Origin: Bryobacteraceae bacterium CoA2 C42
GTDB lineage: Bacteria > Acidobacteriota > Terriglobia > Bryobacterales > Bryobacteraceae
Direction of reading: 5' to 3'
Length of the DNA: 64,000 nt
Assembly (NCBI GenBank): GCA_019931245.1
Contig: JAINDL010000057.1
Span: 1 to 64,000 of the forward strand
Numbering within the stretch: position 1 is the first letter of the stretch; every line of letters starts with the position of its first letter. Positions 11,671 to 24,987 of the stretch are shown one piece after another. Made by a program: the position numbers and the translations under genes. The notes under the pieces were generated by a model. The model made no database searches. It had not been told where the DNA came from and saw only the letters and a program-made list of their open reading frames with translations.

Positions 11671-11695
11671 AACCGGGCAACGCGGCCGGTTCTGG

Positions 11696-11701
11696 TATAA
11701 T
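11696..11701 (+). promoter_or_regulatory. Extended -10 promoter element TGGTATAAT upstream of the lysozyme-like gene
   Basis: Perfect TATAAT preceded by TG at 11693-11694. Confidence 0.6.
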
Positions 11702-11707
11702 AAAGTA

Positions 11708-11803
11708 ATGCGATAAACCTCTAGCGGAAACGATTGCTCGCTTTCCGTCATCCACACTTTGGATCGTAAGACCGATATCTAACTTAGAGGCGACTTCCTA
11801 TTG
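11708..11803 (+). ncRNA. Candidate structured 5' UTR (cis-regulatory RNA)
   Basis: CCTCTA 11718-11723 pairs with TAGAGG 11785-11790 (the SD); hairpins CGGAAACGA-TTGC-TCGcTTTCCG 11725-11747 and ATCCA-CACTT-TGGAT 11750-11764. Confidence 0.45.
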
Positions 11804-12277
11804 AAACGATGGATTACCAAGGGACTCGTGTTGTTTGCCGTCTCCCTGCCACCCGCTATGAACGCTCCCGCCGAGGATCTGCGTTCCGGGGTGTACGCCG
11901 AAGATAGCCGGATGCAGCGCATCCGCAGCTTTTTTCGCAAACGGAAGTGCCCCGCGCAACGCTACGCCGCCGAATTCCTCCATGCGTCTGACCGCTATCG
12001 GCTCGATTGGCGTCTGCTCCCGTCTCTCGCTCTGATTGAAAGTAGCGGCGGCAAAGCTTTCACCAATAACAACATATTTGGGTGGGATTCCTGCCGGCAG
12101 CGGTTTTCCTCCGTACAGGCAGGGATCCACGCGGTCGCCGAGCGGCTCGCCAACTCACCGCTTTATCAGGGCAAGTCGATCGACGACAAACTCAAGGTCT
12201 ATAATTCCAGACCGCACTATCGCGTGGCCGTCAAGCGGGTCATGCAACAACTCGAGTTCGAAACTGCCGGATTCTAA
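11801..12277 (+). CDS. Exported lysozyme-like/glucosaminidase-type peptidoglycan hydrolase
   Basis: 158 aa, TTG start; YRLDWRLLPSLALIESSGGKAFTNNNIFGWDSC...SVQAGIHAVAERLANSPLYQGKSIDDKLKVYN. Confidence 0.75.
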   Translation: MKRWITKGLVLFAVSLPPAMNAPAEDLRSGVYAEDSRMQRIRSFFRKRKCPAQRYAAEFLHASDRYRLDWRLLPSLALIESSGGKAFTNNNIFGWDSCRQRFSSVQAGIHAVAERLANSPLYQGKSIDDKLKVYNSRPHYRVAVKRVMQQLEFETAGF

Positions 12278-24009: not shown

Positions 24010-24647
24010 CAGTTTTTAAATCGTACCGCGAACTTGCCGGCGGGTCCGCGGTAGAAGAGTTCGAGGTCTTTGGCTTTTTGCTTGCCGTCGAAGCCGAAGT
24101 AGAGGAGGCCGCTGACGGGTTGGAGGCTTTTGCCTTCGGGGAGCACTTTTTCTTTCAACACTTTAAGGACGGGGTCTTCTTTGGTGTCGGTCATGCCTTT
24201 GCTTTCTACCGTTGTGCCGCCGCCGGCGCCGCCGCCGCCGACCATGCCGCCGTTACCGAGCGGAATGCCGCCGAGGCGGGGGCCGGTGGGGTTGTTGCCG
24301 ACATAGGTGCCGCCGCCGCCGGGCGCCTGGCCGAGGACGAGGGCGCCGCGGCCGGCGAGTTGGGCGGGGTGGAAGGGGGGAGAGCGTTGGGCGTCGCGCG
24401 TTGAGAAGAGCTGGAACTGTTCGCGTTGGATGTCGAGGGGTTCTTCGCCGAGGGGGGTGACGGTGAGGTCGACGACGATGATGGCGCCGTCGAAGTCGCT
24501 GCCGAGGAGGCGCTTGATGTCGGCGCGGTCGGGGTAGACGGTGGCTTTGATCTGGATGCGGTCATCTTCGTAGACGCCGGCGGGGAACTTCTTTTCCGCC
24601 GCGAGCAAGCCGACCGCGAGCGCGAGTGGCACAAGTTTCAGCCGCAT
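24009..24647 (-). CDS. Hypothetical secreted protein
   Basis: 212 aa, signal peptide, Gly/Pro-rich central region. Confidence 0.75.
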   Translation of the reverse strand: MRLKLVPLALAVGLLAAEKKFPAGVYEDDRIQIKATVYPDRADIKRLLGSDFDGAIIVVDLTVTPLGEEPLDIQREQFQLFSTRDAQRSPPFHPAQLAGRGALVLGQAPGGGGTYVGNNPTGPRLGGIPLGNGGMVGGGGAGGGTTVESKGMTDTKEDPVLKVLKEKVLPEGKSLQPVSGLLYFGFDGKQKAKDLELFYRGPAGKFAVRFKN

Positions 24648-24987
24648 GCCGCAATTATACGCTCAAACTTCGGCGGTGGCCGCCGAGAAGGTTTTGGTGA
24701 CCGCCTTTTTGCAGGACGCCAATTCGATCCTCGAGACCGCGCAGTATAGCGGTGAGGGCACGAACTGGACGATTCTGACCGGTGGACCCGGGGGAGTCCG
24801 AATGATCGCCGACTCGGACTGGCCGCTCGACTCGCTGCAGGTGCATACCGGCGCGGCGGCGGCCTACCGGATCCACCGGCGGGGCGGGGCAGTGATGGTG
24901 GAGGGGCGGTCGGCGCATCAGGCGCTGGCGGTGCGGTCGACTCCTCCGGCGCAGGTGGCGCGCTTTATGTTGGGCGCGCGGGGGTAG
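24646..24987 (+). CDS. Hypothetical protein (GTG at 24676 is an alternative start)
   Basis: 113 aa; ATG overlaps the start codon of the divergent gene. Confidence 0.5.
   Translation: MPQLYAQTSAVAAEKVLVTAFLQDANSILETAQYSGEGTNWTILTGGPGGVRMIADSDWPLDSLQVHTGAAAAYRIHRRGGAVMVEGRSAHQALAVRSTPPAQVARFMLGARG

Follow-up and report, generated by a model that had tools for sequence, protein, structure and literature searches.

In Escherichia coli, ptrB and other 5'-uAUG mRNAs carry an AUG at their very 5' end on a message that is led by a Shine-Dalgarno (SD) sequence (Beck, Fleming and Janssen 2016, PMC4965119), an architecture that the leader described here shares. With a start-stop AUGxxxUGA, ptrB expression stayed at about 40%, whereas an AUG-to-AUC change brought it to <8% (PMC4965119). 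The E. coli 5'-uORFs listed in the table of that paper span 5-26 codons and the start-stop form of ptrB was engineered, whereas the start-stop and four-codon forms that we report are natural, conserved within a family, tied to one gene and followed by a positioned hairpin. Minigenes act in cis in several ways, one of them being protection of the mRNA, according to the summary given in PMC8708949. The EHEC LEE1/LEE4 and axe-txe mg2 minigenes covered by that summary resemble our mini-ORF as leader ORFs of two to six codons with action in cis, which in our case is predicted; the LEE4 mini-ORF and the txe minigenes are described there as using SD sequences, whereas ours would be leaderless at the predicted +1. 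Mycobacterial leaderless uORFs are likewise short ORFs that run from the transcript 5' end and lie 5' of genes, according to PMC4633059, but they belong to another gene and another phylum. In the open-licence literature, 5'-terminal AUGs and leader minigenes have so far been single E. coli cases without deep conservation. To our knowledge, no conserved 1- to 5-codon form of the mycobacterial leaderless uORFs has been described.

In translational attenuators of the erm type, a ribosome on the leader ORF alters SD sequestration of the next gene. The leaders of the clade studied here may be similar: occupancy of the mini-ORF is predicted to change SD exposure in this clade, and in 11 of 55 leaders overall. 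They differ from the erm type in being leaderless, in their far shorter ORF, in the confinement of SD pairing to one clade and in having no conserved stalling peptide (MR*, MW*, ML*, MTPW*, MSVP* and M* all occur).

The locus lies in a window of 64,000 nucleotides, the whole stretch of DNA analysed, from Bryobacteraceae bacterium CoA2 C42. It appears to represent a family-wide, gene-specific mini-ORF leader with codon-level selection on ORFs of only one to five codons, and comprises the following features:

11693-11701, + strand: extended -10 promoter TGGTATAAT, read from the sequence; an extended -10 is kept 5' of most homologues
11708-11716, + strand: putative leaderless mini-ORF at the predicted +1, ATG CGA TAA (Met-Arg-stop), from sequence and family conservation
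11718-11723, + strand: CCTCTA, the 5' arm of helix P1 (anti-SD), within the predicted footprint of a mini-ORF ribosome
11724-11748, + strand: hairpin 1 (GCGGAAA...TTTCCGT), given as 11725-11747 in the initial annotation, 7 nt past the mini-ORF stop, from the minimum free energy (MFE) structure and compensatory changes
11750-11764, + strand: hairpin ATCCA-CACTT-TGGAT, from the MFE structure of the window leader
11785-11790, + strand: TAGAGG, the 3' arm of P1, which includes the SD GAGG, from sequence and ensemble pairing
11801-12277, + strand: main gene with a TTG start, 158 aa

The initial annotation had named the -10, CCTCTA, the hairpins, TAGAGG and the TTG at 11801, and its observation of these leader elements is confirmed: all lie where it placed them, the UTR of about 93 nt and the layout from -10 to TTG are as it described, and its P1 and both hairpins are exactly what the MFE structure shows. 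The mini-ORF, immediately 5' of P1, was absent from that description. The P1 helix is plausible, yet we regard the mini-ORF as the principal feature of the leader.

The mini-ORF itself is well supported by its recurrence in the family. We collected 78 non-redundant leaders of Bryobacteraceae homologues that have a good -10 (75% identity filter) and picked the best -10 of each leader blind to any ATG. In these leaders, which are still phylogenetically non-independent, an ATG lies 5-9 nt past the -10 in 58 of 78 (shuffles: mean 4.4, max 11) and opens an ORF of <=5 codons in 47 of 78 (shuffled leaders: mean 0.85, max 5; 300 shuffles each). The gap is tightly held at 6, 7 or 8 nt for 64 of 66 ATGs. 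The encoded peptides vary between clades and include short forms (M*, MR*, MW*, ML*, MS*, MLL*, MKL*), four-codon forms such as MDSL*, MSRL*, MTPW* and MTPL*, and, in a large clade, MSVP*, MSIP*, MPVP*, MDAP*, MEAP* and similar ones. In three sister leaders (L158, L159, L162) a TTG with an immediate stop stands in for the ATG, and L113 has GTG-TAA at this place. The ATG is lost in two close relatives, L155 (ATA) and L166, and some homologue leaders lack any recognisable mini-ORF element.

Several features suggest that this block is read by ribosomes. The 34 four-codon ORFs end with TAA (26), TAG (5) or TGA (3), and 20 of them have Pro directly before the stop. Within this Pro-ending group (n=20), variability is highest at third codon positions, with entropies for codon positions 1/2/3 of 1.26/0.72/1.93, 0.99/0.81/1.74 and 0/0/1.49 bits. 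Variable third positions and the use of all three stops favour translation and disfavour a DNA operator. It is thus highly improbable that the ATG...stop block is an untranslated DNA element, either an operator or an initially transcribed sequence: such an element would explain why the block is held at a fixed spacing from the -10, but the sequence changes between clades while the start and in-frame stop stay, third codon positions vary most, and three stops as well as ATG, TTG and GTG starts are all used. The excess over shuffled leaders (47/78 against 0.85) and the codon-type substitutions indicate a very short ORF under translational selection, as expected of a minigene. Readthrough from the mini-ORF stop into the main gene was considered and rejected; the two are in frame at this locus (93 nt), but an in-frame TAA (11780-11782) lies between them, and the frame is lost in relatives (91 nt in L003).

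The promoter suggests that translation of the mini-ORF would be leaderless. At the window locus 6 nt separate TATAAT from the mini-ORF ATG, and a TA-like signal about 10-12 bp 5' of the start is a published signature of leaderless starts (PMC3160421). The pattern TATAATN{5,9}ATG occurs 22 times in the window's genome, against 7 for the reversed control, and its readable loci are mostly starts of long ORFs with a gap of 6 as the commonest. Leaderless genes with a -10/ATG spacing like that of the mini-ORF thus appear to exist in this organism, and the gap of 6-8 nt seen for the mini-ORF across the family equals the spacing of the long leaderless genes in the window's genome. One likely leaderless gene of this common kind lies in the window itself, at 24645-24659 on the - strand, where TATAAT-N6-ATG opens an ORF of 212 aa. 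Given a -10 this near to the ATG in a genome with leaderless genes, the 93-nt leader most likely opens with a two-codon leaderless ORF, and the predicted mRNA 5' end would lie at the mini-ORF AUG or within 1-2 nt of it. TGGTATAAT followed by ATG is found in the window's genome solely at the 11693 locus, and TGNTATAAT, whatever follows it, hardly occurs elsewhere in the 6 Mb of this genome, with one other match (non-T at the last pattern position). This near-absence suggests that the promoter at 11693-11701 is exceptional and probably strong.

The combination of promoter and mini-ORF is almost exclusive to one gene among 237 family genomes. TATAATN{6,9}ATGNNNRTNCCNTAR occurs at 11 places in these genomes, one per genome (reversed control: 1), and by coordinates all 11 matches are directly 5' of the glucosaminidase-like gene. 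A frame-blind search with TGNTATAATN{6,8}ATGN{0,9}TAA returned 43 places in the family genomes, of which 32 are in-frame and 11 out-of-frame. The glucosaminidase-like gene follows 22 of 24 fetched in-frame matches, compared with none of six fetched out-of-frame matches, and five further in-frame matches were assigned to it by coordinates. A regulon of many genes with a shared leader was rejected, as almost all motif matches lie at this single gene. Its own paralogue (L116) has a leader without such a mini-ORF element.

The product of the main gene has a hydrophobic, signal-peptide-like N-terminus. It is weakly assigned as glucosaminidase-like, with PF01832 (glucosaminidase) matched at 25.8 bits, below the 30.2 cutoff, and in 7 of 18 aligned members; a search for relatives of solved structure found none. 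Of 150 sampled genomes of Bryobacteraceae, a family of soil bacteria, 128 carry a homologue; outside the family none appeared at E 1e-8 among 200 sampled genomes of the class. Named relatives belong to Bryobacteraceae, 'Candidatus Sulfopaludibacter' and 'Candidatus Solibacter' (Acidobacteriota).

Beyond the mini-ORF, the leaders place a covarying hairpin at a defined distance from its stop, about 7-14 nt. In the four-codon clade with Pro- or Ser-ending ORFs, 17 of 25 leaders have a hairpin of <= -5 kcal/mol that starts 6-14 nt past the stop, where shuffles give 3.3 of 25 (SD 1.5, max 8 in 100), and within a scanned range of 0-39 nt the onset peaks at 9-13 nt, most sharply at 11 nt. The onset scatters less relative to the stop than relative to the AUG (SD 3.3 nt vs SD 10.1 nt), although part of this tightness reflects a search range of 5-17 nt past the stop, so that the peak seen over 0-39 nt is the better evidence. 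The stems of this clade differ in sequence and yet remain paired (GGGAAC/GTTCCC, GGGAGC/GCTCCC, GGGAGA/TCTCCC, GCGGGAC/GTCCCGC), which indicates covariation of the post-stop hairpin. In the window's clade the onset is 7-9 nt past the stop in 4 of 5 leaders, and among six close relatives both partners have changed in three of the pairs of hairpin 1. Ribosomes usually give a toeprint 15-16 nt from the P site, so that one holding the stop codon in the A site would reach about 10 nt past the stop, to the onset of the hairpin.

The P1 helix has a much narrower distribution. In the ensemble of the window leader about 99% pairing is predicted for the SD GAGG, and the four CCTC/GAGG pairs are present in 6 of 6 close relatives (fifth pair 5/6, sixth 3/6). 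The sequestration of the SD by P1 that the initial annotation had proposed is thus predicted and kept in the immediate clade, but it lacks covariation, with no compensatory changes among the six close relatives and 4 of 5 counted pairs invariant, and it is absent beyond them; of the helices, it is hairpin 1, with its three compensatory pairs, that is backed by covariation. The fold of the whole leader is unremarkable (z -1.1), and 23 of 200 dinucleotide shuffles equal or exceed its stability. The ATCCA/TGGAT hairpin is not preserved in this form by the closest relatives, and the 3' hairpins inside P1 change even between sister species.

A ligand riboswitch or RNA thermometer with P1 as its expression platform is therefore very unlikely. 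P1 holds the SD and encloses hairpins, one of which covaries, in line with such a device, but Rfam yields no match for the leader, whether at its gathering threshold or with E as high as 10, no aptamer-like core is conserved outside the clade, and the unexceptional fold, the non-covarying P1 and the changing 3' hairpins speak against it as well. The riboswitch- or thermometer-like character read into the leader by the initial annotation is thus not supported, and its interpretation as a whole is partly supported. In the window Rfam finds only a tRNA. The leaders of relatives have no riboswitch match; apart from a SorX match below threshold, they gave only a match to a group II intron, which is unrelated. 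The intron match (D1-D4-3, 93.6 bits) is at L106:589-758, around one homologue. What is deeply conserved is the mini-ORF and a hairpin just past the ribosome, which suggests that the ligand of this leader is the ribosome rather than a small molecule or temperature.

The promoter, the mini-ORF, its translational selection, its gene specificity, the placement of the hairpin and the predicted P1/SD pairing are all read from the sequence; the +1 site, ribosome occupancy, the direction of its effect and any signal that the leader might respond to are inferred. A ribosome parked at the mRNA 5' end probably controls the glucosaminidase-like gene. A 70S ribosome would bind the 5'-terminal AUG without an SD, add one residue (a few in longer mini-ORFs) and halt once the stop codon has entered the A site; termination would be slow, leaving the ribosome parked over the 5' end with its leading edge abutting hairpin 1. 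In the window's clade, where P1 begins one nucleotide past the mini-ORF stop and within the footprint, this ribosome would cover CCTCTA, block P1 and expose the SD of the TTG-started gene; without it P1 would close and the weak TTG start would be translated poorly. Consistent with this, the energy needed to open the SD falls when the footprint is masked, from 4.7 to 2.6 kcal/mol in the window leader, from 4.3 to 1.7 in L003 and from 4.5 to 1.7 in L004, two relatives in which the predicted helix reaches into the mini-ORF itself, and by smaller amounts in L005 (3.0 to 2.2) and L156 (3.1 to 2.8). We consider this model as a whole, with a leaderless mini-ORF ribosome at the 5' end that frees the SD in this clade, somewhat probable.

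Only 11 of 55 family leaders gain >1 kcal/mol in SD accessibility on masking, which rules out SD release as the family-wide mechanism. As P1 is moreover limited to six relatives and does not covary, SD release is plausibly a local elaboration in the window's clade and not the ancestral role. Across the family the general role is probably that a docked ribosome raises the expression of the downstream message or stabilises it. We tentatively propose, with somewhat less confidence than for the local model, that the family-wide element is a 70S ribosome parked on the mini-ORF and locked against the hairpin, serving as a cap or sensor for a secreted glucosaminidase-like protein; as a sensor it may respond to non-canonical 70S initiation or termination.

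The slowly terminating 70S and the abutting hairpin could instead act purely as a 5' cap against decay of the RNase E/RppH type, giving the mRNA a longer half-life, with P1 as an incidental feature. This reading is rather unlikely and makes no use of the predicted SD sequestration in the window's clade, but it would account for the persistence of the mini-ORF in family members that lack P1 and for a hairpin onset that follows the stop better than the AUG. It would also fit the Pro before the stop in 20 of 34 four-codon ORFs, a reported context of slow termination, and it has a precedent in the LEE4 mini-ORF as summarised in PMC8708949. Slow termination after a C-terminal proline is cited in PMC7246954, although that study itself observed no effect on expression.

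The mini-ORF could also act on the main gene in the opposite direction, by repression. A repressive decoy or sensor, in which occupancy or stalling switches the leader between states in the manner of erm-type translational attenuation, with an antibiotic, a shortage of release factor or tRNA, or 70S abundance as candidate triggers, is improbable. A leader ORF beside an SD-sequestering helix does resemble translational attenuators, and minigenes this small can sequester peptidyl-tRNA, according to the minigene summary in PMC8708949. However, the peptides differ by clade, which argues against a common stalling peptide, P1 is clade-limited, and no inducer is known. 

The family-wide, gene-specific mini-ORF makes two questions directly testable, namely whether a leaderless start-stop ORF can serve a bacterial mRNA as a ribosome-occupied 5' end and whether the position of a hairpin at the ribosome edge is important, and the window's clade shows how one lineage can add an anti-SD helix to a mini-ORF element.

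Individual lineages depart from the common layout. In L079 (genome G025) the ORF that begins at the 5' AUG has no stop and after about 39 codons joins the main gene in the same reading frame, possibly as a leaderless N-terminal extension rather than a mini-ORF. A CTTATA/TTTATA motif recurs about 8-25 nt past the mini-ORF stop in leaders L157, L158, L160, L163 and L164, all of one genus. In L160 and L161, as read from the letters, the mini-ORF ATGACCC can pair with GGGTCA shortly 3' of it, which would place the mini-ORF itself within a hairpin in that lineage.
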